From the NCBI GenBank assembly GCA_017889635.1, contig JAGGAC010000025.1:1-33690 (forward strand): DNA of 33,690 nucleotides, given 5' to 3'. Shown piece by piece: positions 1,381-19,975 of this stretch. Under the pieces are notes generated by a model that saw nothing but the letters and a program-made list of their open reading frames with translations, did no database searches and was not told the origin of the DNA. Position 1 is the first letter of the stretch. Each line of letters starts with the position of its first letter. Source of the DNA: Bacillota bacterium (GTDB lineage: Bacteria; Bacillota; Negativicutes; Sporomusales; CTSoil-080). Made by a program: the position numbers and the translations under genes.

Positions 1381-1402
1381 TTTTAGATAGGAGGTTTAAT
1401 TG

Positions 1403-2884
1403 ATGATTAAGGTTACAGATTTTCGTTCTAGTTTGGAGTTGTTAAAGTCAATACCGGGGCAATTGATTGAGACGGATGAACCTGTACATCCGCATGCGGA
1501 GTTGTCTGGGGCTTATCGTTATGTTGGTGCCGGCGGAACTGTGAAGCGTCCCACACGCATTGGTCCCGCCATGATTTTTAATAACGTTGTGGGGCATGAA
1601 GGAGCACGAGTGGTGATTGGATTACTGGCCAGTCGTGAGAGGGTAGGTTATCTGCTGGAGGCACAACCGGATAAACTTGGCCATTTATTAAAAGATGCGG
1701 TGAAAGATCCGGTCGCCCCCGTTGTTGTGTCCAATGATAAGGCTGTTTGCCAGGAAGTTGTTCATTATGCTGACGCTCCTGACTTTGATTTGCGAAAAAT
1801 AGTTCCCGCCCCAACTAACACTGAGGAAGACGCTGGTCCGTACATTACTATGGGGATGTGCTATGCGTCTGATATTGAGACCGGAGTCTCAGATGTGACG
1901 ATTCACCGACTTTGCATACAGAGCAGGGATGAACTTTCTATGTGGATTACTCCGGGAGCCAGACACCTTGGAACTTTTTTTGAGAAGGCGGAAGCGATGG
2001 GAAAATCATTGCCAATCTCCATCAGCATAGGGGTTGACCCGGCCATCGAAATCGGTTCGTGTTTTGAAGCGCCTACTACACCTGTGGGTTATAATGAGCT
2101 TAGTGTAGCGGGAGCCATTAGAAAACGTCCGGTTGAGCTGGTTCAATGTTTAACCATTAATGAAAAGGCTATTGCTAATGCCGAATATGTCATTGAAGGA
2201 GAGATAATGGCGGGGACTCGGGTGAGGGAAGATAAAAATACAAATACCGGTAAAGCGATGCCTGAATTTCCCGGCTATACAGGACATGCACCTGCGGCTA
2301 TACCTGTTATCAAAGTTAAGGCGGTGACGCATCGCAAAAATCCGATAATGCAAACAGTTATTGGACCCAGTGAAGAACATGTCAGTATGGCGGGCATTCC
2401 GACAGAGGCCAGTATTTTAGAAATGGTGGATAAGGCTATGCCTGGCCGCCTATTGAATGTATATGCACATTCAGCAGGCGGCGGAAAATATATGGCGGTT
2501 TTGCAGTTTAAAAAGAGTGTGCCCAGTGATGAAGGTCGGCAAAGACAAGCTGCTTTATTAGCTTTCTCGGCATTTTCCGAACTTAAACATGTGGTATTAG
2601 TTGACGAAGATGTAGATCCATTTGACAGTAATGATGTATTGTGGGCGCTAAATACCCGTTATCAGGGTGATGTAGATACAATTTTTATACCGGGTGTACG
2701 TTGTCATCCGTTAGACCCTTCGGAGATGCCTGCTTACAGCCCGATGATTCGGGACCGAGGCATTTCCTGTAAGGTAATTTTTGATTGCACAGTACCGTTT
2801 AACTTGAAAGATCAGTTTGTCAGGTCGAAATTTAAAGAAGTGGATCCAAGCCGTTTTGCGCCGGATTTATTTAAGAAAAAGTAA
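1403..2884 (+). CDS. lpdC: UbiD-family gallate decarboxylase (prenyl-FMN dependent)
   Basis: Predicted to convert gallate to pyrogallol and CO2 in the cytoplasm, using prenylated FMN and a divalent metal. The 493-residue protein matches the remembered Lactiplantibacillus LpdC sequence (about 490 residues) along its whole length, with shared blocks such as HAELSG.YRY.GAGGTV, AAPTNT/PAPTNT, GKAMPEFPGY, IGPSEEHVSMAGIPTEASIL and ALLAFSAF.ELK. The UbiD R-E-E triad is recognisable: R169 in DVTIHR, and E261 and E266 in AEYVIEGE. The start is the ATG 8 nt after AGGAGG; an adjacent TTG at 1400 sits too close. It follows the MFS gene and is closed by a hairpin at 2944. No UbiX-type prenyltransferase or LpdD-like small protein is in the window, so the cofactor must come from elsewhere. 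A related hydroxybenzoate (protocatechuate) is the main alternative substrate. Confidence 0.9.
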   Translation: MIKVTDFRSSLELLKSIPGQLIETDEPVHPHAELSGAYRYVGAGGTVKRPTRIGPAMIFNNVVGHEGARVVIGLLASRERVGYLLEAQPDKLGHLLKDAVKDPVAPVVVSNDKAVCQEVVHYADAPDFDLRKIVPAPTNTEEDAGPYITMGMCYASDIETGVSDVTIHRLCIQSRDELSMWITPGARHLGTFFEKAEAMGKSLPISISIGVDPAIEIGSCFEAPTTPVGYNELSVAGAIRKRPVELVQCLTINEKAIANAEYVIEGEIMAGTRVREDKNTNTGKAMPEFPGYTGHAPAAIPVIKVKAVTHRKNPIMQTVIGPSEEHVSMAGIPTEASILEMVDKAMPGRLLNVYAHSAGGGKYMAVLQFKKSVPSDEGRQRQAALLAFSAFSELKHVVLVDEDVDPFDSNDVLWALNTRYQGDVDTIFIPGVRCHPLDPSEMPAYSPMIRDRGISCKVIFDCTVPFNLKDQFVRSKFKEVDPSRFAPDLFKKK

Positions 2885-4614: not shown

Positions 4615-5583
4615 TTAATTGTTTTTGGGTTTGAACTGACTACTATGGACGGCAGCTACCTCGTGCCGCATTTCCGAGCGGAGACGCAGGGCCTTAAGGG
4701 CGCTAAGGGTGTCGAGCTGGGTTGTGAAGATTGGAATCGCGGGGTTGAGATTGGTTTTCTTCCAGGCAATCATAACATCAAAAGACCGGCTGGGCGTATT
4801 CAGTCCAATGATTCTTACATCCCGCCCGGCGATTTCACGGCAGGTGCCTGGGACAATAGAAATGGCAAGGCCGGATTCGACCATGAACAGGATAGCTGCC
4901 ATTTCCCAGGCCAGGCTGACGATATTGGGCATAAAACCGCGCTCAGCGCAAAGCATGACGGTAAGGTCGTGCAGCAGATAGTCAGTATTCCGGTGAAAAG
5001 TGACGAAGCGTTCATGGGCCAACTGCGCAACGTCTACTGTATCCTCGCCAGCCAGGCGATGGTTTCGGTGTACTGCCACGCCCCAAACGTCGGTAAAAAG
5101 GTTTTTCCCGACAAGCTCGGGAAAGGCGTCAAAACCGTAGGTCATAGTAAACGCTAGATCGATGTCTTCTCGCATTAAAGCTTTGTTAACTTCGCCCCAA
5201 TTGTAGTGCTGCAGGATGAGCTCGATATTCGGATAGGCTTGCCCGAATTCCCGGATTCCTTGAGGAAGGAAATTCTCTTCGATACCGCCTAAGAAACCGA
5301 CTTTGAGACAGCCTATCTGGCCGCGGGCCGCTAGCTGAGCTTTCCTGGCGGCCTCTTCGGCCTTTGCAACGATCGTATAGGCTTCTTTCAAATAGACTTT
5401 GCCGGCTGGTGTTAACTCGAGCGGACGCTTATTGCGAATTACTAATTGGGCTTCAACTTGTTTTTCAAGCTCGGATATCTGCTGGCTGATCGCAGACTGG
5501 GATACGCCCATTATTGTCGCTGCTTCCGAAAAATTAAGATTTTCGCCAACGGCGATAAAGTACTTTAATTTTTGAATATCCAT
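4615..5583 (-). CDS. LysR-family transcriptional regulator (first paralogue)
   Basis: A 322-residue DNA-binding regulator. An N-terminal winged helix-turn-helix occupies about residues 1-60 (LKYFIAVGENLNFSEAA, then SQSAISQQISELEKQ) and is followed by a two-lobed inducer-binding domain. The start ATG follows AGGAGG. The protein is clearly paralogous to the LysR at 20209-21210: both share LPQGIREF/LPQAIRDF, YGFD.FPEL, KTLFTD/KNLFTD and a C-terminal MVAWKK/MIAWKK. It is transcribed away from the symporter-transhydroxylase operon, and a LysR-box-like palindrome lies in the divergent intergenic region. The likely role is activation of the gallate/pyrogallol genes with an aromatic inducer; the inducer is unknown. 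Confidence 0.92.
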   Translation of the reverse strand: MDIQKLKYFIAVGENLNFSEAATIMGVSQSAISQQISELEKQVEAQLVIRNKRPLELTPAGKVYLKEAYTIVAKAEEAARKAQLAARGQIGCLKVGFLGGIEENFLPQGIREFGQAYPNIELILQHYNWGEVNKALMREDIDLAFTMTYGFDAFPELVGKNLFTDVWGVAVHRNHRLAGEDTVDVAQLAHERFVTFHRNTDYLLHDLTVMLCAERGFMPNIVSLAWEMAAILFMVESGLAISIVPGTCREIAGRDVRIIGLNTPSRSFDVMIAWKKTNLNPAIPIFTTQLDTLSALKALRLRSEMRHEVAAVHSSQFKPKNN

Positions 5584-5643
5584 GATTCCTCCTGTTGTTT
5601 TCCGCAGGTCAATTACTATTAGTATAGCTATTTTAGCTTGAAT

Positions 5644-5881: not shown

Positions 5882-6126
5882 TAATGGCAACGTTATCAGA
5901 TTTATCAGTTTTATTACGCTGTTAGTATTGCGGCATTAGTATGCTACTGCTGAATTAGCAAAGGTTGCACTCTCGAGTAGTTTTTGGCAATAACCGAATA
6001 ACGCATTTAGAGGTTGCTTTGTATCTAAATTTGCTCAGGGCGGTTCCGTATTTACTTAAAAGGGGGCGAGCGTAGGATAACTTCAAAAAGGCCGAATAAT
6101 TGAATGAAGGAGAGGTTGGGGTCGGT

Positions 6127-7614
6127 ATGTGGGGTCCGTTGATTATTGCCGTTGGGTATTTTGTTGTTCTTATTGGTTTGGCAAATTACTTTTTGCACAG
6201 CCGGATAAAGAACATAGTCGATTTTTCTATGGCTGGGAGGTCGCTTAATTGGGGGTTGGTTACGCTGGCTTTGGCGCTTATCCCCCATGGTTCCGGGCAT
6301 ACTATGTCGCTTTGGGAGTCGTCGTCGGTTTTAGGGGCTGCGGTTCTTTGGTGGCCGATCATCGTCGGCGGGGCCTTCATTCCAATAATAATGTTTTGGA
6401 CCGGGCCATGGATGCGCAAACTGCGGGTGGAAACGATTCCTGAGGCTATGGGGCAACTTTATGGCGATAATATGCGCTCTTTGCATTGTGTGATCCAGAT
6501 AGCCACCTGGACCGCTATTGCCATGGCTGAAACACTGGCTACGGCAGGAGCTATTTATGGATTGAGCGGTGGGATTCTTTCTTACAATCCGGGTTGTATC
6601 ATTTTGGCATTTTTGCTGATGATCAGCTACATTATCTTCGGCGGTGTGCTTGAATTGGTATGGGTCAGCGTGGTCAATGTAGTTGTCATGACTGTCGGCT
6701 CATATTTGGCTCTGTTTTTCCTCGGCGGCTGGCTTGTCTCCAATGCAGCAGGCTGGGAGGGGGTCCTTAATACTTACGCCCAGGTGGACCAGCTATGGAA
6801 GTTTGATCTGTTTAACTTTTCGCCGGAAATCGTATTTACGGTAATCATTCCGGTCGCTGTACTGCATATAGCTGCGGGTGGTGTAGCACAGGGAATGTAT
6901 ATCCCCCTTCTTTCTGCAAGAACGGACGAAGACTGCCGAAAAGGCTTCTGGATTTGCAGCCTGACTAACGTTGTTACTTGCTTTCCGTGGGTTATCATTG
7001 CATTAGTTGGGATGTCTATTCCTGCCTTTGCTGCGATAGGTCCGAAACTTATTGTCATGGAAGTAGCTCTTAAGACTATGCCACAATGGGTATATGCCCT
7101 GCTGATGGTTAGTTTGCTCACCTCGGTTCTTTCGACCGGCAGCGCTATTATCATGGGGAACTCCACCGTGTTTATCAATGATATTATTAAGCGGGTGATC
7201 AAGCCGGATATGTCTGATGCAACCAGGCTTAAGCTGATGCGGCCGGTCATTACGCTATGCGGCTTGCTCGCCGCTGTACCGGCGCTCTTCGCTCCTATTC
7301 TGTTTCCTGTCTTCTTGTGGGCATTCTCCTTCGGCATCCCCTTATTTATGATCATGCTGTTTGGTTTGGTTTGGAAGACCAGCCGGACTGCAGCCTGGAT
7401 CACCATTATCGTTACCTATATCGTGAATTTCTGGTGGACATTTGCTACTCCAGCTTGGGCTTCGCCTCCGTGGTCGCTTAACATGTATCCGGTAACCGTG
7501 TGTTCTATCGTGCTGGGGGTTGTACTGTTCGCCATTCTGCCTGGTGAACCCGGTCTGCTCCGGAGAATGAAGGCGGCCGAGGTTTCTTCCGGTGTGAATA
7601 GTCCTGCTATGTAG
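6127..7614 (+). CDS. Sodium:solute symporter (SSS family)
   Basis: A 495-residue inner-membrane carrier with about 12-13 hydrophobic segments, of the Na+-coupled solute:sodium symporter family (PutP/PanF fold). The N-terminal part shows the characteristic DFSMAGRSLNW stretch after the first span. The start is the ATG at 6127, after AAGGAGAGG; an in-frame TTG at 6100 would add 9 residues. It is the first gene of a run with two tiny membrane proteins and athL-athS, all on the same strand with short gaps, so it probably imports a trihydroxybenzene, gallate or another substrate of this pathway. The substrate is an inference; pantothenate- or acetate-type substrates cannot be excluded from sequence alone. 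Confidence 0.88.
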   Translation: MWGPLIIAVGYFVVLIGLANYFLHSRIKNIVDFSMAGRSLNWGLVTLALALIPHGSGHTMSLWESSSVLGAAVLWWPIIVGGAFIPIIMFWTGPWMRKLRVETIPEAMGQLYGDNMRSLHCVIQIATWTAIAMAETLATAGAIYGLSGGILSYNPGCIILAFLLMISYIIFGGVLELVWVSVVNVVVMTVGSYLALFFLGGWLVSNAAGWEGVLNTYAQVDQLWKFDLFNFSPEIVFTVIIPVAVLHIAAGGVAQGMYIPLLSARTDEDCRKGFWICSLTNVVTCFPWVIIALVGMSIPAFAAIGPKLIVMEVALKTMPQWVYALLMVSLLTSVLSTGSAIIMGNSTVFINDIIKRVIKPDMSDATRLKLMRPVITLCGLLAAVPALFAPILFPVFLWAFSFGIPLFMIMLFGLVWKTSRTAAWITIIVTYIVNFWWTFATPAWASPPWSLNMYPVTVCSIVLGVVLFAILPGEPGLLRRMKAAEVSSGVNSPAM

Positions 7615-7941: not shown

Positions 7942-10539
7942 ATGGGAAAAGCGATTCGTATGACAAATTCATCTACCGGAGGTCCTGTTTTCGTTTATGT
8001 AAAAGACGGAAAAATCGTTAGAATGACTCCAATGGATTTTGACGAGACAGATGCAAAATCATGGGAGATCAAAGCAAGAGGCCGGACCTTTACGCCACCC
8101 CGTAAAACAACGATAGCCCCTTTTACTGCTGGCCAGAAATCGATGATATATTCCGATAAAAGAGTTTTGTACCCAATGAAGCGTGTTGATTTTGACCCTG
8201 ATGGCGAGAGAAATATTCAAAATCGCGGCATTTCCGGTTACGAGCGGATTAGTTGGGAAGAAGCTACCGATCTGCTTGTTAAGGAAGTCGACAGAATCAG
8301 AAATACGTATGGACCTTCCGCCATTCTTTCCACCCCCAGTTCTCACCACTTATGGGGTAACGTCGGTTACAGACACAGCACATATTTTCGCTTCATGAAT
8401 ATGATGGGCTTTACTTATGCTGACCATAATCCTGACAGCTGGGAAGGCTGGCACTGGGGTGGTATGCACATGTGGGGCTTTAGCTGGCGGCTTGGCAACC
8501 CAGAGCAATATGATTTGCTCGAAGATGGTTTAAAGCATGCAGAAATGATTGTTTTCTGGTCTTCTGACCCTGAAGTTAATAGTGGTATCTATGCGGCCTT
8601 TGAGTCAACTGTTCGTCGCCAGTGGCTAAAAGATCTTGGCGTCAAAATGGTATTCATTGATCCTTTCTATAACCATACTGCTGGTCTATTCGGAGATAAG
8701 TGGTTATCGCCGAAAATCGGCACCGACCACGCACTTTCCTTTGCTATTGCCTATACTTGGCTAACTGAGGGCACTTATGATAAGGAATATGTTGCAACCC
8801 ATGCCCATGGCTTCGAAGAATGGGCCGATTATGTACTTGGTAAAACCGACGGCTTACCCAAAACCTGTGAATGGGCCGAGGGTGAAACCGGTATTCCGGC
8901 GTGTGAAATCCGCGCTCTTGCTCGCGAATGGGCTAAGAAGAATACCTACCTCGCAGCCGGCGGACTTGGTGGTTGGGGTGGCGCTTGCCGTGCGTCGCAC
9001 GGAATCGAATTTGCCCGCGGCATGATCGCGCTTGCTACAATGCAAGGCATGGGCAAACCGGGCTCAAATATCTGGTCCACAACCCAAGGTGTGCCGCTTG
9101 ATTACGATTTTTATTTTCCTGGTTATGCCGAGGGCGGCATTTCGGGCGACTGTGAAAATTCCGCCGCCGGTTTCAAATTTGCTTGGAGAATGTTCGACGG
9201 CAAGACTACTTTCCCATCGCCGTCCAACATCAATACTTCTGCAGGTCAACACATTCCACGTCTTAAAATACCCGAATGCATCATGAACGGTAATTTTCAA
9301 TGGAGCGGCAAAGGCTTTGCTGGAGGCGATATTGCGCATCAGATGCACCAATACCAGTATCCTGCGCCGGGCTATTCTCCGATTCGGATGTTCTGGAAAT
9401 ATGGCGGGCCGCACATGGGAACAATGACTGCCACTAACCGCTACGCAAAAATGTATAATACCGAAACCCTCGATTTCGTTGTCAGCCAGTCCATCTGGTT
9501 TGAAGGTGAAGTACCGTTTGCCGATTTGATTTTGCCGGCATGCACCAACTTTGAACGTTGGGATATTTCTGAATTTGCCAATTGCTCCGGATACATTCCC
9601 GATAACTACCAGCTTTGCAATCATCGTGTCATTTCGCTGCAGATGAAATGCATCGAGCCGCTGGGTGAGAGCAAATCTGACTACGACATTTACGCCTTGA
9701 TTTCGAAGAAACTCGGTATTTACGAGATGTTTACCGAAGGTAAAGATGAGCTTGCGTGGGTTGAACAGTACTATAATGCAACAGACATGCCGAAATACAT
9801 GACTTTCGACGAATTTAAGAAAAAAGGTTATTTTGTTGTTCCGGATAATCCGAACCGCAAGAAGACGGTGGCTTTGCGCTGGTTTGCTGAAAACCGCGAA
9901 AAGGATACACCGGACTGGGGGCCGCGTCTCAATAACCAAGTTGGCCGTAAGGGTTTGCAAACAACTACCGGTAAGGTTGAATTCATTGCAACAAGTATTA
10001 AACGCTTTGAAGAACAGGGATTTGTTGATGAATATCGTCCGGCAATGCATACCTACGTTCCTGCGTGGGAAAGCCACCATAGTCCGCTCGCTAAAAAGTA
10101 TCCGCTGGGTATGCTTTCGCCGCATCCGCGCTTCTCCATGCATACTATGGGCGATGGCAAGGATAGCTTCATGAACGACATCAAGGACCATCGTGTTCTT
10201 ATCGATGGCCACTATTACTGGATTATGCGTATGAACAGTAAAGATGCGGCGGCTCGCGGCATCAAGGACGGAGATTTGATCAGGGCGTATAACGACCGCG
10301 GTTCGGTAATTCTGTGTGTGCAGGTTGGTGAACGGGTTCAGCCTGGCACCGTACATTCGTATGAATCATCCGCCGAGTACAATCCGATTGGGAAACCAGG
10401 CAAGTCGGCTGACCGCGGCGGCTGCGTCAACATTTTGACACCTGACCGGTACATGTCCAAATATGCCTGCGGTATGGCGCCTAATACTGCGCAACTTGAG
10501 GTTGAAAAGTGGAACGGCGAAATTTACGAGATTTACTAA
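7942..10539 (+). CDS. athL: Pyrogallol-phloroglucinol transhydroxylase, molybdenum large subunit
   Basis: Catalytic subunit (EC 1.97.1.2) that moves a hydroxyl group from 1,2,3,5-tetrahydroxybenzene to pyrogallol, giving phloroglucinol and regenerating the cosubstrate; no net redox change and no water-derived oxygen. The 865-residue protein matches the remembered Pelobacter acidigallici subunit (875 residues) nearly end to end. Known active-site residues are conserved with a 9-residue offset: His135 (PSSHH), Asp165 and the molybdenum ligand Ser166 (HNPDSW), and Tyr395 (YFPGY). Like that enzyme, it lacks the N-terminal Cys cluster of many bis-MGD oxidoreductases and has no signal peptide, so it is cytoplasmic. 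Ribosome-binding site AAGGGGG precedes the ATG. athS follows after 41 bp. The main difference is a shorter loop near residues 93-100. Confidence 0.97.
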   Translation: MGKAIRMTNSSTGGPVFVYVKDGKIVRMTPMDFDETDAKSWEIKARGRTFTPPRKTTIAPFTAGQKSMIYSDKRVLYPMKRVDFDPDGERNIQNRGISGYERISWEEATDLLVKEVDRIRNTYGPSAILSTPSSHHLWGNVGYRHSTYFRFMNMMGFTYADHNPDSWEGWHWGGMHMWGFSWRLGNPEQYDLLEDGLKHAEMIVFWSSDPEVNSGIYAAFESTVRRQWLKDLGVKMVFIDPFYNHTAGLFGDKWLSPKIGTDHALSFAIAYTWLTEGTYDKEYVATHAHGFEEWADYVLGKTDGLPKTCEWAEGETGIPACEIRALAREWAKKNTYLAAGGLGGWGGACRASHGIEFARGMIALATMQGMGKPGSNIWSTTQGVPLDYDFYFPGYAEGGISGDCENSAAGFKFAWRMFDGKTTFPSPSNINTSAGQHIPRLKIPECIMNGNFQWSGKGFAGGDIAHQMHQYQYPAPGYSPIRMFWKYGGPHMGTMTATNRYAKMYNTETLDFVVSQSIWFEGEVPFADLILPACTNFERWDISEFANCSGYIPDNYQLCNHRVISLQMKCIEPLGESKSDYDIYALISKKLGIYEMFTEGKDELAWVEQYYNATDMPKYMTFDEFKKKGYFVVPDNPNRKKTVALRWFAENREKDTPDWGPRLNNQVGRKGLQTTTGKVEFIATSIKRFEEQGFVDEYRPAMHTYVPAWESHHSPLAKKYPLGMLSPHPRFSMHTMGDGKDSFMNDIKDHRVLIDGHYYWIMRMNSKDAAARGIKDGDLIRAYNDRGSVILCVQVGERVQPGTVHSYESSAEYNPIGKPGKSADRGGCVNILTPDRYMSKYACGMAPNTAQLEVEKWNGEIYEIY

Positions 10540-10580
10540 AACGTAGCTCTTAATAGCGGGAAAAAGGAGGACTTAGTTAA

Positions 10581-11408
10581 ATGAAACAATGGTATATGGT
10601 CATAGACGTGGCCAAATGTCATGACTGCAACAACTGTTTTATGGCCTGCAAGGATGAGCATGTTGATAATAAATGGCCCGGCTATACTGACGCTCAACCG
10701 CGTCACGGGCATCGCTGGATGAATATCGAACGCCGGGAGCGGGGGCAATATTCCAGAAATGATGTGGCATATCTTCCGATGCCTTGCCAGCACTGTGAAA
10801 ATGCGCCCTGCATAAAGGCTGGGAATGGCGCGGTGGTTCGTCGTGAAGACGGAGTTGTAATAATTGATATGGAAAAGGCGAAGGGCAACAAGGAACTGGA
10901 GAAATCATGCCCGTACGGCGCTATTTACTGGAACGACGAAGTTGCTACTCCTCAGAAATGCACCATGTGTGCCCATTTGCTTGACGACGAATCGTGGGCT
11001 CCCGGTATGCCGCGGTGTGAGCATGTTTGCCCCACTGGTGCAATTACGACTTACAAACTAGAACCGACCGCGCTGGAAAAGAAAATTAAAGAAGAAGGTT
11101 TAACTGTGTACAAAGCGGAGCTGAACACCGACCCCCACGTTTTGTATAAAAACCTCTTCAAATTTACCAAGAATTTTATTACCGCAGGTGTCTTAGTGGA
11201 TGGGGATTGTTTTGAAAATGCTACCGTTAATCTGAAAAGTAAGGGAGAAGTGGTAGCGACGCAAAAAACGAACTTTTTCGGTGAATTTAAGTTTGACGGC
11301 TTGGAAAATGGTGAATATGTTGTAGAAGTAGACGCCGGCGGCAAAAAAACATCCAATAATGTTATGATTACAAATCAATCGCAAAATATGGGTTTTATTA
11401 ACCTATAA
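10581..11408 (+). CDS. athS: Pyrogallol-phloroglucinol transhydroxylase, iron-sulfur small subunit
   Basis: The 275-residue partner of the large subunit. Twelve cysteines suit three [4Fe-4S] clusters: C13, C16, C19 and C23 in CHDCNNCFMAC; C69, C72 and C77 in CQHCENAPC; C110 in SCPYGA; C127 and C130 in CTMC; C146 and C150 in CEHVC. From about residue 200 a beta-rich C-terminal domain (GVLVDGDCFENATVNL, then GEFKFDGLENGEYVVEV) resembles the carboxypeptidase-regulatory/Cna-B-like domain known at the end of the Pelobacter subunit, which is almost the same length. That domain separates it from ordinary DMSO-reductase-type electron-transfer subunits. The ATG has AAAAAGGAGG about 10 nt upstream. No membrane-anchor gene follows, consistent with a soluble heterodimer. 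Confidence 0.96.
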   Translation: MKQWYMVIDVAKCHDCNNCFMACKDEHVDNKWPGYTDAQPRHGHRWMNIERRERGQYSRNDVAYLPMPCQHCENAPCIKAGNGAVVRREDGVVIIDMEKAKGNKELEKSCPYGAIYWNDEVATPQKCTMCAHLLDDESWAPGMPRCEHVCPTGAITTYKLEPTALEKKIKEEGLTVYKAELNTDPHVLYKNLFKFTKNFITAGVLVDGDCFENATVNLKSKGEVVATQKTNFFGEFKFDGLENGEYVVEVDAGGKKTSNNVMITNQSQNMGFINL

Positions 11409-11416
11409 GTGGTAGT

Positions 11417-11463
11417 TTGCGTAAAGGGGGAGTTTTATTAATAAAACTTCCCCTCTTACGCAA
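11417..11463 (+). terminator. Hairpin after athS
   Basis: TTGCGTAA pairs with TTACGCAA, and the arms continue through GGGGAGTTTTATT and its imperfect complement. The stem is about 20 bp and sits 8 bp after the athS stop codon. No T-tract follows on the right, so it may stabilise mRNA or terminate only partly. Confidence 0.6.
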
Positions 11464-11526
11464 TATGTGTTGCCGAATTTGCTATAAATAGATGGCAGAT
11501 TAAGGTCTGCGGAAAGGTTTATCTTT

Positions 11527-12081: not shown

Positions 12082-12156
12082 TTAGAGGTTGCGGAAGAAT
12101 TTAAGGGTAGAAACTAATGCGCCGTTTGAGCAAAGTTTGGGGTAGAGATATCTTCG

Positions 12157-12858
12157 TTGTTTGTCTGCTGGAGGGCGGTGGCCCGCGATTTGAGAGAAGC
12201 CGGATTAGATCGCGTGAATATAAGCCTCGATACCGTTAATCCAATTATGTTTTCTAGAATCACTACCTGTGGTCGGATTGAGGACACGCTGCTGGGTATT
12301 CAAAGCGCTTTAGATGTCGGGCTGACTCCGCTAAAACTTAATGTGGTGCTAACAGAATCATTATGCGAAACCGACTTGCAATATTTTCTTGAGCAAGTCC
12401 GCCGGTTTCCAATAGCGGTGCGGTTTATTGAATATATGCCATTAGGTGGCACCGGCATTGGCAATGGTCCTGATATTGAAACTGTAAAAGGAATGTTGAG
12501 TACCATTGTTGGTGCCAAGAAATGGCGGCCAATCGAAAATGTCAAGGGAAATGGCCCTGCCAAATATTACCAGATTCTGCCGAAAGCGAGAGGAACTTTC
12601 GGGTTTATAACTCCTATTTCAGATCATTTTTGTGGCGAATGCAACCGTCTGCGCTTGACAGCGGATGGTAAGCTGCGACCTTGTTTGTTATCAAGCAAGG
12701 AAATAGATGTAAAGACGCCGTTGCGAAATGGTGCCAGTGACCGTGAATTGGCATTGCTATTTCATGAAGCGGTCAGCGAAAAGCCGCAGGGCCACTCGCT
12801 TTGTCGAGCGAGTGGTTATCCGGATTTTAAACGAAAGATGTCCCAAATTGGCGGATAA
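12157..12858 (+). pseudogene. moaA: 5'-truncated moaA (molybdopterin biosynthesis radical SAM enzyme) remnant
   Basis: About 225 residues match the C-terminal two thirds of MoaA (GTP 3',8-cyclase, normally about 325 residues): LREAGLDRVNISLDT, RFIEYMPLGGTG, FGFITPISDHFCGECNRLRL and GKLRPCLLS, including the C-terminal [4Fe-4S] cysteines. The N-terminal third with the radical-SAM CxxxCxxC is missing, and only 75 bp separate this stretch from the preceding gene, so it is not present in another frame. The possible TTG start at 12157 has no good ribosome-binding site. The product cannot be a radical SAM enzyme. It is probably a decayed copy left by a deletion or rearrangement; its position beside a molybdenum enzyme suggests that a complete moaA once lay here. 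Confidence 0.85.
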
Positions 12859-13080: not shown

Positions 13081-14115
13081 TCAGGACGAGTGCAAATCGA
13101 TCAGTACTTTGATATCTTTCATTGAACTAATTTCGCTGGTGAAGTAGGTATTGATCGTTTCTAAGGTTAGTACCCGCGAGATTATTTTGTTAATATGAGG
13201 GGAGTAGTGGCTGATGATTTTTAGTGCTTGTTCAAAGCCTCCGGTGCTGCCGATATTGGCGGATATGGTCAAGGATTTCTTCATGATCAGGCCAAAGTCA
13301 AGGGTTAGCTTTTGCTGATGGCCGATGCAAACGATTTGTCCACAGGGATTTGCTAACTCAATAATTTTTGTCAATGCGTCTGCATTTCCCGCTGCTTCCA
13401 CTGCCAGGTCAAAATGCCCGGTTAACCGATTGTTGGCGTCAGAAAAATTGGCCAGTACTGTTGTTACGTTGGAAAAACCGAAAGAATCAACAACTGCTAG
13501 TTTTTCGGGGGACATGTCGGCGATGGTAATCTCGGGAATACCTTGCTCCAGGAGTCCGAGCAGAGCCATGATTCCAATGCCTCCTGCGCCGATGATTAGT
13601 GCCTGGCGAACCTTATTCAGCTTATTGGGTGGAATACGATTTATGATTGATTCCACCGCTACGGCCATCGGTTCAGTCAGCGCCAGGGCTTTTATGTCGG
13701 GCAAAACCGGGCAATGATAAAGATGCCGCTGGTTGACAATGATGTGTTGGGCACAAGCACCGTCTACCATTATTCCTTTCTTTTTTACATTAAGACAGTG
13801 GTTTTTGTTGTTAGCGTCGCAAAAACTGCAACTGCCGCAATATAAAGAACAATCGCCTGTGACTATATCACCTGGAAGCCACTTGGCGGAGGCTTCCACG
13901 CCAGCTTGGATTACTTCTCCTACCCATTCGTGCCCGATAATAAGCGGATATTTGTGGGGCGCGGTATAGGTTCCAGCATACAATTTCTTGTCAGAGCCAC
14001 ATAAAGCTACATAGTGGATCCGGACCAATACTTCATCAGCCGCGGGGATACCTATCGGCAAATCAATGACCTGCAATTTTTGAGGTGATTGTATTACAAC
14101 TGCTTTATTTTTCAT
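13081..14115 (-). CDS. Zinc-dependent alcohol/polyol dehydrogenase (MDR family)
   Basis: A 344-residue NAD(P)-dependent medium-chain dehydrogenase related to threonine, sorbitol and aminocyclitol (NeoA/KanK-like) dehydrogenases. Catalytic zinc ligands are C39, H62 and E63 (GHEWVGEV); the structural zinc site is C93, C96, C99 and C107; the nucleotide-binding loop is GAGGIG (176-181). It would interconvert a secondary hydroxyl and a ketone on a sugar or cyclitol in the cytoplasm. It is the last of three minus-strand genes, 18 bp after the TIM-barrel gene, with AGGAGGA before the ATG. Its place beside a sugar-phosphate cyclase makes a cyclitol or inosose substrate likely. Sequence alone cannot separate this from L-threonine or polyol oxidation. 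Confidence 0.85.
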   Translation of the reverse strand: MKNKAVVIQSPQKLQVIDLPIGIPAADEVLVRIHYVALCGSDKKLYAGTYTAPHKYPLIIGHEWVGEVIQAGVEASAKWLPGDIVTGDCSLYCGSCSFCDANNKNHCLNVKKKGIMVDGACAQHIIVNQRHLYHCPVLPDIKALALTEPMAVAVESIINRIPPNKLNKVRQALIIGAGGIGIMALLGLLEQGIPEITIADMSPEKLAVVDSFGFSNVTTVLANFSDANNRLTGHFDLAVEAAGNADALTKIIELANPCGQIVCIGHQQKLTLDFGLIMKKSLTISANIGSTGGFEQALKIISHYSPHINKIISRVLTLETINTYFTSEISSMKDIKVLIDLHSS

Positions 14116-14133
14116 GCGAAATTTCCTCCTCTC

Positions 14134-14973
14134 TTAAAAATTAATGTTGGAGGAGTGTGAGATATTAGTTAGATAAGCCAGGCTTTCTCTCAGAGCCCTT
14201 TGCCAAATCTGATCATGATTATGCAGTTCAACACTGACAAAATGCTCGTAGCCGGATCGTTTTAGGCTGCCAAGTATGCGTGAAAAATCAATGTCTCCTT
14301 CGCCCGGGATTTGATGATAATGAATATTGTCTTTGATATCCTCGATATGAATATGACGAGTGTATGGCAGAGCGTTATCGATTGCTTGGTAGCAGTCTGT
14401 TTCGCTGCAGAAAACATGGCCGATATCCAGATTCAAACGGAATTGTGGCCGATTAATTTGCTTGATGAAAGCGGTTGCTGTAGCTGAAGTTCCAATGAAA
14501 AAGTCTGGCTCGGGCTCCAACACCAGGATGACATCGCCTACCTCTTTGAGCAATTGAAGAATGTTATCGTACAAGTATTCCTGTGCCTGTTCTCGGATGA
14601 CGTCAGGACGGAGTTTGCCGGTATTGATGTTCAATACTGGTGCTCCCAAATAGTGGGTAAGTTCCAAGGATCGTTTGATGATGTCAATGCGTTTGTTTTG
14701 TACTGATTTATCAGGATGAATGAGCGACGGCTCATAGGGTTCGTTTCCTAAAAGATTAGGACCGCCGGCAGCCACGCAAACTATTGAAATATCGTTTGAA
14801 GCACAATAATCTCTGATTTCTTTCGCACGGGACGGAGTGGATTTCAGGGGGTGGAGATGAGTGCCATTGAGAGTCAGTTCAACTCCCTCGTAACCTGCAC
14901 TCTTGATATGGTGCAGGGCTTCGAGTACATCTATCTCGCGCAAAGTAGTTGAGTTAAAACAATATTTGAACAT
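14134..14973 (-). CDS. Sugar phosphate isomerase/epimerase-type TIM-barrel protein (IolE/IolI-like)
   Basis: A 279-residue member of the xylose isomerase-like/AP-endonuclease-2 TIM-barrel superfamily, which contains inosose dehydratase (IolE), inosose isomerase (IolI) and several sugar epimerases. Metal-site candidates in the expected order are E153 (VLEPEP), D183 and H186 (NLDIGH), H209 (RHIHIED) and E249 (VSVELH). The GEGDIDF motif near residue 225 is also typical. The start ATG follows GGGAGG. It is the middle gene of the operon, between the cyclase and the dehydrogenase. It could isomerise, epimerise or dehydrate the cyclase product; dehydration of a keto-cyclitol, as IolE does, is the idea tested in the findings. 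The fold is firm and the reaction is open. Confidence 0.8.
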   Translation of the reverse strand: MFKYCFNSTTLREIDVLEALHHIKSAGYEGVELTLNGTHLHPLKSTPSRAKEIRDYCASNDISIVCVAAGGPNLLGNEPYEPSLIHPDKSVQNKRIDIIKRSLELTHYLGAPVLNINTGKLRPDVIREQAQEYLYDNILQLLKEVGDVILVLEPEPDFFIGTSATATAFIKQINRPQFRLNLDIGHVFCSETDCYQAIDNALPYTRHIHIEDIKDNIHYHQIPGEGDIDFSRILGSLKRSGYEHFVSVELHNHDQIWQRALRESLAYLTNISHSSNINF

Positions 14974-15084
14974 GGGACAGTCAGCCTCCCATTTTTCTAT
15001 TGATCGTTTATTTGTTGAAAATAAAATATTTACTTAGCAGAAAGAATGGTATTACGACAATATATCGAATTGCAAAGTGGCTGA

Positions 15085-16230
15085 TTATGCTATTTTGCTG
15101 GAATAGGCATGTTTATTCTTGTATTCAGTCAATACTTTTCGTACAATCTCAGGCTCTACAAATACCTGGTAATCGCCGTCAGGATTCAAGCATTCGCCAA
15201 GTTCCTTCAATAAAACATATTTTACGCCACTGGCGGTTTTTTTGTTGTCTGCCAAAAATGATTTCATCATGTCGTCAACCGACATATGTTCCGGAATAGA
15301 GATATCCAACCCTAACTTGTTTTGGAAAAAGTAATAATGTTTATCAACCAGAGCTTGTGAAATATATCCTAGGTAATGCGAAAGTTCTGCTGCGATACAC
15401 ATGCCCTTGGCGACGGACAAACCATGAGGAATTTGTCCATCGGTGAAAAACTCTATGGCATGGCCAAATGTATGGCCATATTCCAGGGTCATGCCGTACC
15501 TTTTCTCAGAAGGGTCACGTTTTAATATTTTCAATTTGGATTGAATGATTTTTAGCGCAAGCTCATTCAGATCAGCTTCCGAATAAGCGGCGATATCTTC
15601 ATCTAATTTTGTATCGAAATATTCAAGTAGATTGCCGTCGGAGATAAATCCATTCTTAATAGCCTCTGTGATACAGAATTTTCTACCTGAAATACTTTCC
15701 GATAACAAATATTTAGTGTCGCCAAATAGGAAAATTGGAGCGTAGTACATGCCGAATTGGTTTTTGCCGGTTTTACCGCAAATGGCTTGTTTATTGCTTA
15801 GCGTACTGTCTGTAATCCCCATTAAGGTTGTAGGCATCTCAATGTAGCGGATGCCGCGGAATATCAGTCCTGCTGCCAGACCGACGATGTTGGTAAGACA
15901 GCCGCCGCCAAAACCGATTATAATTGATCCTTTAGAAATCTGATTTTGAACTAATTTTTCGCAAAGGTTTTCGAGGTTGGAAAAATTCTTATGGTGCTCT
16001 CCGTCGGGAATGGTGACCACAATGTGCGGTATGGCGTTTTGGTCAAAAATATTGGTGAGTTCTTTGCCGTACAAGTTTAAAAGGATATCGTTGGTGACCA
16101 AAAATACTTTGTCAAAATCATACTGTTTGATAAGTTTTCCCAATTCGTGTGTAATCCTGTTGCCGAAGTAATAGGTGGGGTCGGGTGATAAATGGGTCTT
16201 GAAGTTGATCATTTTGATTTGTTGTGTCAT
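15085..16230 (-). CDS. Sugar-phosphate cyclase, 2-deoxy-scyllo-inosose synthase-like
   Basis: A 381-residue NAD-dependent cyclase of the 3-dehydroquinate synthase superfamily. It has the cofactor motif GFGGGC (106-111), the PTTLMGITDSTLSNKQA block, GKNQFG and EYGHTFGHAIE; E190, H253 and H269 match the zinc ligands. Two features favour DOI synthase (BtrC-type) over dehydroquinate synthase: SNKQA where the latter has a VGGKTGIN-type sequence, and E250 before YGHT where the latter usually has N. It would cyclise glucose 6-phosphate, or a related sugar phosphate, to a cyclitol ketone. The ATG at 16230 is 8 nt after AAAGGAG; a GTG at 16239 would add three residues. First gene of the operon. Valiolone-type cyclases and EboD-like proteins are alternatives. 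Confidence 0.82.
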   Translation of the reverse strand: MTQQIKMINFKTHLSPDPTYYFGNRITHELGKLIKQYDFDKVFLVTNDILLNLYGKELTNIFDQNAIPHIVVTIPDGEHHKNFSNLENLCEKLVQNQISKGSIIIGFGGGCLTNIVGLAAGLIFRGIRYIEMPTTLMGITDSTLSNKQAICGKTGKNQFGMYYAPIFLFGDTKYLLSESISGRKFCITEAIKNGFISDGNLLEYFDTKLDEDIAAYSEADLNELALKIIQSKLKILKRDPSEKRYGMTLEYGHTFGHAIEFFTDGQIPHGLSVAKGMCIAAELSHYLGYISQALVDKHYYFFQNKLGLDISIPEHMSVDDMMKSFLADNKKTASGVKYVLLKELGECLNPDGDYQVFVEPEIVRKVLTEYKNKHAYSSKIA

Positions 16231-16325: not shown

Positions 16326-16353
16326 ATTATATTTAAAATTCAGAAAAGTGCAA
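16326..16353 (-). promoter_or_regulatory. Promoter of the minus-strand cyclitol operon
   Basis: Reading the minus strand, TTGCAC (16353-16348) is followed after 16 bp by TATAAT (16331-16326). The start of transcription would fall near 16320, upstream of the 32-bp palindrome. The -35 hexamer lies inside one arm of the inverted repeat at 16345-16378. Confidence 0.6.
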
Positions 16354-16378
16354 GAACTATTTTTGGTTCTTGCACTTT
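16345..16378. repeat. Inverted repeat overlapping the cyclitol -35 region
   Basis: AAAGTGCAAGAAC pairs exactly with GTTCTTGCACTTT around an 8-nt loop. It is not placed to terminate any gene, since both flanking genes diverge from this region, so an operator over the minus-strand -35 box is more likely. Confidence 0.55.
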
Positions 16379-16509
16379 GTTCTTTGTAAACTTATTTGTT
16401 GTTGTTATAAGAAATACTTATAGAAAGCGAATGGTACGAGAAAAATGTTAATATTGATAATATAAATATATAACGAATTTACTGGGATTAATGGACGATG
16501 TAAAAAAAT

Positions 16510-16565
16510 ATTTTCGAAATAATTGGAAATGTGAAGGAAATTAGAAATAATTATAGTATTATTAG
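16510..16565 (+). promoter_or_regulatory. LysR-box-like and promoter element of the liv operon
   Basis: ATTTTCGAA (16510-16518) repeats the left part of the LysR-box palindrome at 5834-5848. Positions 16537-16565 match the 29-bp element at 5853-5881 in 26 of 29 bases, including the shared TAGTATTATTAG end with TATTAT as a likely -10. It ends 62 bp before the livG start. The two operons are therefore probably activated by the same LysR protein or by its paralogue. Confidence 0.6.
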
Positions 16566-16627
16566 AATAACGTGGTTTGCTGGAGGCGAAACTGAAAAAC
16601 CGCGTGTGAGTAGACGGAGGTGTGGCA

Positions 16628-17353
16628 GTGAAGGCAGTACTCCAAATCCAAGATCTCAGTATATCTTTCGGTAATAATCATGTTTTAAAATCGCTAACCT
16701 TCGACGTAATGCCCAAGGAGGTTCTTGGAGTTATCGGTCCAAACGGTGCAGGTAAAACGGTGATGCTGAACATCCTGACCGGAACACTGCAGCCTACTAA
16801 AGGCAAAATATTTTTTCAGGGAGAAAATATTACCCACAAGAGCATCACAGAACGCTGTCGGATGGGAGTAGGTCGCACCTTCCAGGTTCCGCGGCCATTT
16901 GAAAAAATGACGGTATTCGAAAATGTTATAGTCGCCGGCGTTTATGGCGGTGGGCTTGTGGAGAAGGAAGCCCAGAAGAGGGCGCGAGGCATTATCGACA
17001 AGATTGGCCTGAGTCCGAAGATCAACTGGTTTGCCGGAAAGCTAGGGCTTCTCGACCGAAAACGTCTGGAAATCGGCCGAGCCCTGGCTATCAATCCGAA
17101 GATCCTGTTGTTAGACGAAGTGGCGGGAGGCCTAACCGAATCAGAAGTTGTGGAAATTCTTGGTGTTGTCCAAGCGGTTAAAAAGCAAGGTGTAAGCGTG
17201 GTATGGATCGAGCATGTTCTAAAAACGATGCGCGAAGGGACCGACCGGGTGCTGTGTTTGGCCGAAGGCCGCAATATTGTCTGCGGCTTGCCGGAAGAAG
17301 TCATGAGTTCAAAGGAAGTACTTGATACTTATTTAGGGGTTGACGAACGATGA
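16628..17353 (+). CDS. livG: Branched-chain-type ABC transporter ATPase (LivG-like)
   Basis: A 241-residue ABC ATPase that would energise uptake through the LivH/LivM permeases. Walker A is GPNGAGKT, the Q-loop region carries GRTFQVPRPFEKMTV, the LivG hallmark, and Walker B is KILLLDEVAGGL. The ABC signature position reads LLDRKRLEIGRAL rather than LSGGQ, a variation often seen in LivG. The start chosen is the GTG 7 nt after GGAGG; a GTG at 16622 lies only 1 nt from that site. Its stop codon overlaps the start of livF (ATGA). First gene of a four-gene operon without a binding protein. An aromatic or related acid substrate is inferred from context. Confidence 0.92.
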   Translation: MKAVLQIQDLSISFGNNHVLKSLTFDVMPKEVLGVIGPNGAGKTVMLNILTGTLQPTKGKIFFQGENITHKSITERCRMGVGRTFQVPRPFEKMTVFENVIVAGVYGGGLVEKEAQKRARGIIDKIGLSPKINWFAGKLGLLDRKRLEIGRALAINPKILLLDEVAGGLTESEVVEILGVVQAVKKQGVSVVWIEHVLKTMREGTDRVLCLAEGRNIVCGLPEEVMSSKEVLDTYLGVDER

Positions 17354-18087
17354 CCAACGATGGTGTGATGCTGGACATTGCAAAATTGAACGTTCATTAC
17401 CATGATTTTCAGGCACTTAACGACGTTTCCCTAAAAGTCAGAAAAGGGTCGGTTGTTTCGATCATCGGCTCCAACGGGGCAGGGAAATCGACCTTGTTAA
17501 ACACCATCATGGGAATCAACAAGCCGACCAGCGGTGATATTGCTTTCATGGGCCCAAGTATTGCCGGCCTGGAACCCAATAAGGTGGTAGCCCGGGGCAT
17601 CTCAATGTCCCCGGAAGGCAGCAAAGTATTCGAAAAAATGACAGTGAAAGAAAACCTGCTGATGGGGGCTTATCTGCCCCATGCTCGCAGAAAAGTCAAC
17701 AACAGTTTGGAGAAGGTCTACGAACTATTTCCCGTCCTGAAGGAAAAGGCCGAACAGGATGCTACCTACCTGAGCGGAGGCCAGCGGCAGATGCTCGCGA
17801 TCGCCAGAGCTATCATGTCCGATCCACAACTGTTATTATGCGATGAAATTTCACTGGGGTTAGCTCCGGTAATCATCAAGGATATTTACAGGAAACTCAA
17901 GGAAGTTAACCATGCCGGATTAACTATCGTACTGGTTGAACAGGATGTCCGGCGAAGCCTAAAAAATTCCGACTACAGCTATGTCATTTTAAAAGGCAAA
18001 ATCGTTATGGAGGGCAAGTCTGACGAATTGTCGGAAGAAGAAGTTGCGGATGCCTATTTTGGAGTCAACAAATATACCAGATTCTAG
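17350..18087 (+). CDS. livF: Branched-chain-type ABC transporter ATPase (LivF-like)
   Basis: A 245-residue second ATPase of the importer. Walker A is GSNGAGKST, the signature is YLSGGQRQMLAIARAIM, Walker B is LLLCDEISLGLAP, and the switch histidine region reads VLVEQDV with Q where LivF proteins often vary. The MSPEGSKVFEKMTVKENL stretch is typical of LivF. The ATG overlaps the livG stop codon (ATGA), indicating translational coupling. LivG and LivF form the cytoplasmic heterodimer beneath the two permeases encoded next. Confidence 0.93.
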   Translation: MTNDGVMLDIAKLNVHYHDFQALNDVSLKVRKGSVVSIIGSNGAGKSTLLNTIMGINKPTSGDIAFMGPSIAGLEPNKVVARGISMSPEGSKVFEKMTVKENLLMGAYLPHARRKVNNSLEKVYELFPVLKEKAEQDATYLSGGQRQMLAIARAIMSDPQLLLCDEISLGLAPVIIKDIYRKLKEVNHAGLTIVLVEQDVRRSLKNSDYSYVILKGKIVMEGKSDELSEEEVADAYFGVNKYTRF

Positions 18088-18108
18088 TGAAATGGGGGTG
18101 TGACGCCT

Positions 18109-18987
18109 ATGCCGGAATATGCTATTATCCAGTCGATTCTTAATGGGATTTTGCTTGGAGGACTGTACGCCATCGTCGGTATAGGAATGTCGATGGTCTT
18201 CGGCATCATGGGGCTGACCAACCTGGCACATGGTGACATGATCATCCTTTCGACCTTTTTGTGCATCTTCTTTGTCACCCAACTTATCCCTAATATATTT
18301 TTGGCCCTCATTATAACCATTTTGATTATGATGGCTCTTGGATTCTTGATCCAGAATTTTCTGGTTAATCGAGTCCTTGACAAGGGTGGTGAACCAGCCC
18401 TCCTGGTAACCTTTGGGGTTTCGATCTTCATCCAAAACGTCCTTTTGATGATCTTCGGGGCCGATGCTCAGGTCGTCCATACTCAGCTGGCCGCCATAAA
18501 CATCATTACCACAAAATTTTTCTCCGTCTCAGCCCTCTATCTGTTCAATTTTATTGTTGCCCTGCTGGTAATCGGAGTATTGCATTGCATTGTTTATTAC
18601 ACCTACTTTGGCCGATCAATCCGTGCGACCTCAGATAATGTTGTTGCCGCTGAACTGATGGGTGTAAGCACCAAAAGGATCTACTCATATACGATGTGTT
18701 TGGCTATGGTATCTGCGGCCATCGCCGGTCTTCTGATAGGCATGACTTTTATCTCATATCCTTCTACAGGTACACAGTATCTTATCATCGCCTTTGGCGT
18801 CGTTGTAATCGGAGGCATGGGCAGTCTGATCGGCACATTGTTGGGAGGCATAATCCTCGGTTTAGCCCAACTTCTCGGCGCCTATTTTTTCGGCGCAGGT
18901 TATCAAGCGTTAACCGGCTATATCGTCTTACTCATCATCCTGACGGTGAGGCCACAGGGACTTTTGGGAACGGCGATAAGAAAATGA
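18109..18987 (+). CDS. livH: Branched-chain-type ABC transporter permease (LivH-like)
   Basis: A 292-residue inner-membrane permease with about eight hydrophobic segments. The N-terminal block ILNGILLGGLYAIVGIGMSM, then GLTNLAHGDM, and the ATSDNVVAAELMGV and VVVIGGMGSL blocks are LivH-type. The start is the ATG 8 nt after GGGGGTG; an upstream GTG at 18100 lies within that site. It sits 21 bp after livF and shortly before livM, forming the transmembrane channel with it. Confidence 0.93.
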   Translation: MPEYAIIQSILNGILLGGLYAIVGIGMSMVFGIMGLTNLAHGDMIILSTFLCIFFVTQLIPNIFLALIITILIMMALGFLIQNFLVNRVLDKGGEPALLVTFGVSIFIQNVLLMIFGADAQVVHTQLAAINIITTKFFSVSALYLFNFIVALLVIGVLHCIVYYTYFGRSIRATSDNVVAAELMGVSTKRIYSYTMCLAMVSAAIAGLLIGMTFISYPSTGTQYLIIAFGVVVIGGMGSLIGTLLGGIILGLAQLLGAYFFGAGYQALTGYIVLLIILTVRPQGLLGTAIRK

Positions 18988-19021
18988 GTAAAATACATTG
19001 CGGAGGAGGGGTACGATTACT

Positions 19022-19975
19022 ATGGGGTCGATAAATTGGCGGCTTACATTGAAAATAAGCAGCTTGGCAGTGCTGCTGGCCATATTTTGCGCTGTGCCCC
19101 TTTGGAACAAAGAATATATTACTATGGTATTTATGCTTATCTTTCTCTACATGTCGCTTGGACATATGTGGAACCTTTTGGCTGGTTATGCCGGACTGGT
19201 CTCTTTGGGGCAGCAGATTTTCATAGGAATCGGCGGGTATTCGCTAGCGGTAATCACTGAGTTGTACCAGCTTCCCTGGGCGGTAGGGTTGGCGATAGGC
19301 GGATTGTTGGCGGTGATCTTCGCCATGGTCATATCCCAGCCGATATTCAAAATGCGCGGTGTGTACTTTACTATCGGCACATGGATTGTGGCCGAAGCAC
19401 TGGGGGTATTCTTCAGCAACTGGTCATATGTGCGCTATGCCCGGGGCTTCAATATTACGGTATCTTATCGGATGTCTACTACCGAAGTGTACTATCTGGC
19501 ATTGGCGGTAGGGGTGGCATCGATGGCGTTGGTGTATGTTTTACTTCGTTCAAAGTTGGGGCTGGCTCTGATGGCTATGCGCGACAACGAGTCGGCGGCT
19601 GAAACAATGGGTATCGAACTGTACAAAACCAAATTAAAGTGCTTTCTCATAGCCGCCTTTGTTACCGGTATTACCGGCGGGGTGTTGTATTTATACATTG
19701 CTTTTATCAGTCCAAGCGCCGCTTTTGGTATCGACTGGACGGTAGCGATGGTGTTCATGGTCATCATTGGCGGCATCGGCACTATAGAAGGACCAATAAT
19801 CGGAGCGGTTTTCTTCGTTCTTATCAAACAGTTTCTTTACGACTATCCCGGTATCAGCCTGATTATCCTTGGCGTATTGGCGATCGTTATTATTCTGGTG
19901 GCCCCCAAAGGCATTGTAGGTACGCTGAATGACCGCTACGGCTGGGAGCTTTTGTCTCCCCGCCGTAGGGGGTAG
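19022..19975 (+). CDS. livM: Branched-chain-type ABC transporter permease (LivM-like)
   Basis: A 317-residue second permease subunit with about nine hydrophobic segments. LivM-type blocks are WNLLAGYAGLVSLGQQIFIG, MAMRDNESAAETMGI and MVIIGGIGTIEGPIIGAV. The ATG follows GGAGGAGGGG by about 10 nt; an in-frame TTG at 18998 would add eight residues but overlaps that site. It is the last gene of the operon, which lacks a binding protein; the lipoprotein at 3268-4539 is the likely partner. Confidence 0.93.
   Translation: MGSINWRLTLKISSLAVLLAIFCAVPLWNKEYITMVFMLIFLYMSLGHMWNLLAGYAGLVSLGQQIFIGIGGYSLAVITELYQLPWAVGLAIGGLLAVIFAMVISQPIFKMRGVYFTIGTWIVAEALGVFFSNWSYVRYARGFNITVSYRMSTTEVYYLALAVGVASMALVYVLLRSKLGLALMAMRDNESAAETMGIELYKTKLKCFLIAAFVTGITGGVLYLYIAFISPSAAFGIDWTVAMVFMVIIGGIGTIEGPIIGAVFFVLIKQFLYDYPGISLIILGVLAIVIILVAPKGIVGTLNDRYGWELLSPRRRG

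Follow-up and report, generated by a model that had tools for sequence, protein, structure and literature searches.

A DOI-synthase-type cyclase operon beside athLS in a Bacillota genome: a possible source of the transhydroxylase cosubstrate

The transhydroxylase AthLS converts pyrogallol into tetrahydroxybenzene, while in the same turnover the old tetrahydroxybenzene becomes phloroglucinol. According to the Schink group, the enzyme reportedly needs 1,2,3,5-tetrahydroxybenzene as a cosubstrate and regenerates it in each turnover, and extracts of Pelobacter acidigallici are said to take hydroxyhydroquinone as a hydroxyl donor as well. To our knowledge, the cellular origin of the first tetrahydroxybenzene molecules is unsettled. 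The route from gallate through pyrogallol to phloroglucinol is described in a passage of PMC10470551. The locus considered here lies in a 33,690-nucleotide stretch of DNA from a Bacillota bacterium (the window), where a three-gene operon, referred to below as the trio, adjoins athL and athS. It encodes a sugar phosphate cyclase resembling 2-deoxy-scyllo-inosose (DOI) synthases, a TIM-barrel protein and a zinc-dependent dehydrogenase, and may supply the transhydroxylase cosubstrate. The neighbouring AthL aligns over its full length to the large subunit of pyrogallol hydroxytransferase 4v4c (1786 bits), which we take to be AthLS of P. acidigallici.

Several described systems share part of this arrangement. 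Structure 2d2x, presumably the DOI synthase BtrC of Bacillus circulans, has the zinc-site and lysine columns, the E-Y-G-H-T and S-x-K-Q motifs, N117 and N196 in common with the trio cyclase, which differs from it in an identity of only about 31%, in a long branch of its own and in reading HGL in place of HGE. The DOI synthase locus of Sodalis includes aminotransferase and glycosyltransferase genes, whereas the trio operon has neither. In the ebo operon, as in the trio, a sugar phosphate cyclase (EboD) and a xylose-isomerase-like protein are encoded together; the excerpted description (PMC5133447), however, places EboD among the users of sedoheptulose 7-phosphate and lists in addition a UbiA-type prenyltransferase, a metallo-hydrolase and a phosphate hydrolase, with no zinc dehydrogenase among the genes it names. 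No Ebo-named model occurred among the Pfam and NCBIfam matches of the scanned window proteins. IolM and IolO, which belong to the inositol pathway of Thermotoga, are the top NCBIfam matches of the trio dehydrogenase and TIM barrel, both far below cut-off, and we know of no cyclase in that pathway. AsbF, likewise a TIM barrel, provides a precedent for forming an aromatic ring by dehydration; structure 3dx5, which we take to be AsbF with dehydroshikimate dehydratase activity, scored no more than 26.6 and 28.1 bits, across some 100 residues.

Gene content of the trio and type of its cyclase

The trio consists of three complete open reading frames (ORFs) at 13081-16230 on the minus strand, in the order cyclase, TIM barrel, dehydrogenase (Table 1). 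The ORFs and their Pfam matches confirm a preceding sequence-only reading, which had described a three-gene operon of these families at this place. The cyclase ORF as listed opens at GTG 16239; ATG 16230 is preferred because a ribosome site, AAAGGAG, lies 8 bases upstream of it, overlapping the GTG. The TIM-barrel and dehydrogenase genes are separated by 18 bases, and the cyclase and TIM-barrel genes by 111. The trio converges on the athL-athS-flavodoxin-moaA set (7942-12858) across a gap of 222 bases, and the distance from athS to the 3' end of the dehydrogenase gene is 1672 bases, with the flavodoxin-like and moaA-like genes in between, in agreement with the earlier placement of the trio beside athL-athS. 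Its G+C content (40-46%) is within the range of the window neighbours (39-50%). The draft genome from which the window comes, as contig C112, consists of 152 contigs (99% complete, 3.9% contamination).

In a search of solved structures, the cyclase matched the DOI synthase 2d2x best (165 bits), followed by the dehydroquinate synthase (DHQS) 3zok (158 bits); scores against 4p53 (74.5 bits) and 5tpr (63.5 bits), which are presumably sedoheptulose-7-phosphate cyclases, were far lower. Bit scores alone would leave the choice between DOI synthase and DHQS not clear-cut, and the assignment made here relies on residues and a tree. Both trio cyclases, that of the window and that of Desulfosporosinus fructosivorans described below, read EYGHT where AroB has N-x-GH[TS], as do 2d2x and two annotated DOI synthases. 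EYGHT was not found in 36 other loci (35 distinct genes), which carry the AroB form, or in the 29 phylum-sample loci checked (of 64 matching genomes, 34 of them weaker matches that had no locus to check), all with the AroB form. In a site table, N117, S148-x-K150-Q151, N196 and E253-Y254 are common to the trio cyclase and the DOI synthases; six DHQS/AroB rows have Asn-Phe/Leu against E253-Y254, and Arg at a site that is G249 in the window cyclase and Cys in D. fructosivorans. A tree of 41 rows set the two trio cyclases and three DOI synthases (one solved, 2d2x, and two known by annotation only) apart from 36 DHQS/AroB rows with support 100/99.

These diagnostic residues and the tree uphold the earlier description of the cyclase as DOI-synthase-like, and the enzyme appears to be of the DOI-synthase type. 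DOI as its product is likely, not certain, because the trio cyclases carry residues of their own. Some features of this comparison count against the proposed role in priming: the tree drew the program's long-branch warning and left out EEVS, EboD and DDGS, and the trio cyclases, besides their distance from BtrC, form a long separate branch with particular residues such as L274, a Glu in both AroB and BtrC. That the cyclase might be the host's own AroB was ruled out by a separate AroB-type gene in both hosts, on contig C106 in the genome of the window and elsewhere in D. fructosivorans. Structure predictions from two-row alignments gave poor models of the cyclase (pLDDT 46.9) and the TIM barrel (pLDDT 56.5). 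A plasmid search with the cyclase returned seven records, three annotated as aroB, two unannotated there and two annotated as DOI synthase (Sodalis and Streptomyces); in the last two, the TIM barrel and dehydrogenase were not found beside the cyclase.

In the TIM-barrel protein, E153, D183, H209 and E249 are invariant in both orthologues and are candidate metal ligands. Its NCBIfam scores fall below cut-off for IolO (NF041099, 79.1 bits against 300), hydroxypyruvate isomerase (66 against 353) and the inosose dehydratase IolE (TIGR04379, 34.2 against 290), and the solved structures weakly akin to it include TM_0416 (the best), UlaE, IolI, AsbF and others. By its PF01261 match above cut-off and its Glu-Asp-His-Glu set, the protein belongs to the xylose-isomerase-like superfamily, a level at which its earlier description as IolE/IolI-like stands; the more specific likeness does not, the best scores being those of IolO and TM_0416. 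In the dehydrogenase, C39 and H62-E63, taken from family knowledge to be the catalytic zinc site, and C93/C96/C99/C107, taken to be the structural one, are conserved in the D. fructosivorans orthologue. Its best NCBIfam match is IolM, scyllo-inosose 3-dehydrogenase (NF041097), at 155.3 bits, under the cut-off of 450. For neither of these two proteins can the reaction be read from sequence.

A second trio and its distribution

A scan of a genome collection with the cyclase alone, made with exact peptide words (which miss distant relatives) and leaving athL unused, found one relative, in D. fructosivorans. In this genome, athL starts 346 bases from the start of a divergent cyclase gene, which is followed by the TIM-barrel and dehydrogenase genes and, 3' of the trio, by a gene judged by eye to be UbiX-like and by a UbiD gene 81% identical to that of the window. 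The cyclases are 72% identical, the TIM barrels 63% and the dehydrogenases 58%. The two genomes agree in the gene order of the trio and differ in its orientation relative to athL, and in both the operon is limited to the three trio genes. The D. fructosivorans trio has a G+C content of 35-37%, lower than that of athL (47%) and of ubiD (42%). As of 2015, there were no earlier reports of aromatic degradation by Desulfosporosinus, as stated in a portion of PMC4585845.

The adjacency of trio and athL goes beyond chance, as the second genome was found without using athL and shows the same gene order. The sequence-only reading had named a trio located mainly away from athL as the outcome that would speak against it; this was looked for, and athL was adjacent in both genomes that have the trio (2/2, only two cases). 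No cyclase orthologue away from athL was found in the 380 genomes of a class sample or the 398 of a phylum sample. Because the linkage is kept in two lineages, a functional tie between the trio and the transhydroxylase is likely.

Most genomes with athL have no trio. The gene occurs in 10 of the 380 class genomes (E <= 1e-150) and in 6 of the 398 phylum genomes; the samples overlap and jointly contain 15 athL genomes, or 16 with D. fructosivorans. The cyclase was found in a single class genome, the window's own (E <= 1e-55), and 64 phylum genomes match it at E <= 1e-38, the best match outside its own genome reaching 2.1e-47. The five phylum-only athL genomes gave no cyclase match better than 2.5e-38. 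Among the 15 athL genomes, the TIM barrel has a strong match in one and weak matches in two more, and the dehydrogenase has a match at E <= 1e-50 in one. No trio gene (E <= 1e-15, >60 bits) was present in 19 other athL stretches, some of which end at contig ends.

Ring chemistry and competing explanations

In the route that we infer, in substrate, regiochemistry, product and priming role alike, the cyclase would form DOI, or an isomer close to it, from glucose 6-phosphate; the zinc dehydrogenase would oxidise one ring CHOH, and the TIM barrel would remove one water, perhaps after a ketone shift. The ring would then aromatise to a tetrahydroxybenzene, most usefully the 1,2,3,5 isomer. A trace of this product would suffice to set the cycle going and to replenish it, because AthLS regenerates tetrahydroxybenzene in every turnover. 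The mass balance proposed in the sequence-only reading holds, as DOI minus 2H minus H2O equals C6H6O4. Under rules set in this analysis, one oxidation and one beta-elimination of DOI, in either order, give 14 routes to a tetrahydroxybenzene, of which seven lead to the 1,2,3,4, five to the 1,2,4,5 and two to the 1,2,3,5 isomer. The two direct 1,2,3,5 routes both begin with oxidation: either C2 is oxidised and the C4 hydroxyl lost, or C4 is oxidised and the C2 hydroxyl lost. The former is the one put forward earlier, which is permitted and not forced. If one ketone shift is allowed, 8 of 29 routes reach the 1,2,3,5 isomer. In synthetic chemistry, as given in part of PMC11467972, double elimination of a protected inosose yields protected 1,2,3,5-tetrahydroxybenzene. 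Among the open-licence papers listed by literature searches, most of them judged by their listing, none was recognised as describing a biosynthetic pathway of the proposed kind.

The likeliest reading is that the trio supplies AthLS with a polyhydroxybenzene primer, at odds judged to be even. Besides the evidence named next, it is favoured by the separate AroB-type gene in both hosts, by a UbiD-family decarboxylase in both clusters and by the stretch adjoining the trio's upstream region that is shared with the upstream region of the symporter. The narrower claim of the sequence-only reading, that this product is 1,2,3,5-tetrahydroxybenzene, is favoured by the gene families, the type of the cyclase, the AthL neighbour, the linkage and the mass balance, and it can be held only tentatively. 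A number of points weigh against it. The 1,2,3,5 outcome arises in just 2 of the 14 routes; by analogy, an IolM-like oxidation would hit the beta carbon and lead to the 1,2,3,4 isomer; and the TIM barrel does not appear to be specifically IolE-like. The same section of PMC11467972 reports that free myo-inosose is dehydrated by acid to 1,2,3,4-tetrahydroxybenzene. The linkage rests on two genomes, and 14 of the 16 athL genomes are without the trio. A relative, G017, whose AthL is 85% identical to that of D. fructosivorans, carries athL, ubiD, MFS, moaA and ABC relatives on a 5.2-Mb contig and has no trio. The region between the cyclase gene and the divergent ABC operon shows no likeness to the athL promoter or to the athL-cyclase gap of D. 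fructosivorans (z <= 1.3), and the stretch that it shares with another upstream region (see below) may serve the ABC operon only. Since G017 has a very similar gallate cluster, the trio is not essential, and the 14 genomes without it mean that other cosubstrate sources must exist if the cosubstrate is always needed. Given this patchy distribution, the trio would give some hosts a primer supply of their own that others do without, obtaining theirs in another way, or it would do something else.

A priming role does not depend on the 1,2,3,5 isomer. The trio could make another donor usable by AthLS, either 1,2,3,4- or 1,2,4,5-tetrahydroxybenzene or, by two dehydrations, hydroxyhydroquinone, and 12 of the 14 routes do lead to the first two. 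Hydroxyhydroquinone is the donor said to be accepted by P. acidigallici extracts, and IolM, to which the dehydrogenase comes closest, is a 3-dehydrogenase. This kinship is weak (155 of 450 bits), however, and the known cosubstrate is reportedly the 1,2,3,5 isomer. This variant, whose share is included in the even odds given to priming, is considered improbable. Somewhat more weight, though still on the unlikely side, is given to a DOI-derived cyclitol metabolite, such as a signal, a protectant or part of an antibiotic, with the adjacency to athL incidental. DOI synthases are known from aminoglycoside pathways, and the Sodalis plasmid DOI synthase lies near aminotransferase, glycosyltransferase and radical SAM genes, none of which occurs within 8 kb of that of the Streptomyces plasmid. 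The lower G+C content of the D. fructosivorans trio is as expected for a later arrival, and the absence of the trio from most athL genomes also fits such a metabolite. Against it, the operon holds the trio genes alone in both genomes, and the trio adjoins athL in two lineages despite the rearranged order; by simple arithmetic, with athL copies uncounted, any one athL copy would fall within 5 kb of a chosen position in a 6.1-Mb genome with a probability of about 0.2%.

Least probable is that the trio degrades or interconverts an inositol-like cyclitol arriving with tannin, with a cyclase that uses a different sugar phosphate or works in a different sense. The dehydrogenase and TIM barrel do have their best NCBIfam matches in the Thermotoga inositol pathway, but these matches lie far under cut-off. 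In addition, DOI-synthase-type cyclases release phosphate and build rings, and we know of no degradative role for them. None of the 20 scanned window proteins matched a model for an inositol dehydrogenase, a diketo-inositol hydrolase or a sugar kinase.

The surrounding cluster and the meaning of the trio

The ubiD, symporter, MFS and ABC genes around athLS, together with two LysR regulators, make up what looks like a gallate cluster (Table 1). AthL keeps His144, Tyr152, Asp174, Ser175 and Tyr404 (4v4c numbering), presumably active-site residues of that enzyme. Of 20 aligned rows, the window's included, 19 have all five; the one that does not is a distant AthL-like ORF, the second such gene near athL in stretch L082 (1625-4273, 33-35% identity). 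An athS relative occurs in each of 15 other stretches, directly beside athL in 14, and in L079 as a clustered relative about 7.5 kb off. Within the ABC operon, the ATPases and the first permease were named by eye; relatives of the operon are found near athL elsewhere (68% in stretch L065, 53-63% in L077).

Table 1. Features of the window discussed in the text
Feature	Position	Strand	Basis
Sugar phosphate cyclase, apparently of DOI-synthase type	16230..15085	minus	DHQ_synthase + DHQS_C (Pfam, above cut-off)
Xylose-isomerase-like TIM barrel, candidate dehydratase or ketone isomerase	14973..14134	minus	PF01261 AP_endonuc_2, 135 bits
Zinc-dependent medium-chain dehydrogenase	14115..13081	minus	ADH_N + ADH_zinc_N (Pfam, above cut-off)
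athL, transhydroxylase large subunit	7942..10539	plus	1786 bits to 4v4c, residues 1-865
athS, transhydroxylase iron-sulfur subunit	10581..11408	plus	Fer4_11
UbiD-family hydroxyarylic acid (gallate-type?) decarboxylase	1400..2884	plus	UbiD; NCBIfam VdcC 471 bits, cut-off 650
Sodium:solute symporter, perhaps aromatic uptake	6100..7614	plus	SSF; 63% relative in D. fructosivorans cluster
LysR regulator	4615..5583	minus	LysR_substrate; 54% to a D. fructosivorans cluster LysR
Branched-chain-type ABC transporter operon, divergent from trio	16622..19975	plus	last permease BPD_transp_2
Cyclase-ABC intergenic region	16376..16573	plus	resembles symporter upstream region 5710-5893

Some further observations concern athL and its neighbours. 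The moaA-like gene (12157-12858) covers only model positions 106-336 of 336, its N-terminal third being apparently missing. The genome of the window contains another athLS copy, accompanied by ubiX- and ubiD-like genes, on a 10.5-kb contig (C94), on which no trio was found; the second AthL is 65% identical to the first. While the window AthL scores 1786 bits against 4v4c, it reaches at most 1361 bits, in a different search, against the Bacillota copies found, 1361 being the score of its own genome's second AthL; the pattern perhaps reflects transfer between phyla. The assembly breaks the athL of stretch L076 in two. Five stretches, L071 (at 5341-7590), L073, L074, L075 and L081, share a second molybdopterin oxidoreductase next to athL. 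Ten recurring proteins encoded near athL in L071 were scanned and include a thiolase, a beta-keto acid cleavage enzyme, a cyclase-family hydrolase, an SDR, a CoA-transferase and transporters. As an alternative cosubstrate pathway these neighbours were rejected, their families fitting phloroglucinol degradation instead.

The cyclase-ABC intergenic region and the symporter upstream region align locally with a score of 102, which was reached by 0 of 500 shuffles (maximum 66). They share a 26-bp core (16540-16565 and 5856-5881), and the pattern built from these two sites occurs nowhere else in the window at <=3 mismatches. Because the shared stretch is nearer the ABC operon than the cyclase, co-regulation of the trio with the symporter is only suggested. 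Of the forty upstream-region comparisons made, a few others also rose above shuffles, among them that of the symporter region with the ubiD-PBP region of the window (z 5.8) and that of the window cyclase-ABC region with the L065 PBP upstream region (z 4.2). A strong hairpin (16345-16378) lies in the gap from which the cyclase gene and the ABC operon diverge, on the boundary of the shared region that faces the cyclase; the folding energy is -19 kcal/mol over 71 bases (z -5.7), and the hairpin is terminator-like on both strands, with 3 terminator-like sites observed in the region against 3.4 in shuffles.

The presence of three such genes beside a transhydroxylase makes the origin of the primer directly testable with three recombinant proteins. 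We know of no other source in which an aromatic ring arises from a sugar phosphate by a route of this kind. It is conceivable, if somewhat doubtful, that in some anaerobes glucose 6-phosphate is made into a benzene ring via deoxy-inosose, outside the shikimate and polyketide routes, to supply the cosubstrate of the transhydroxylase. If true, the trio would be the missing source of 1,2,3,5-tetrahydroxybenzene and would explain how some anaerobes begin using gallate and tannins, and it would add a further biological route to the aromatic ring.

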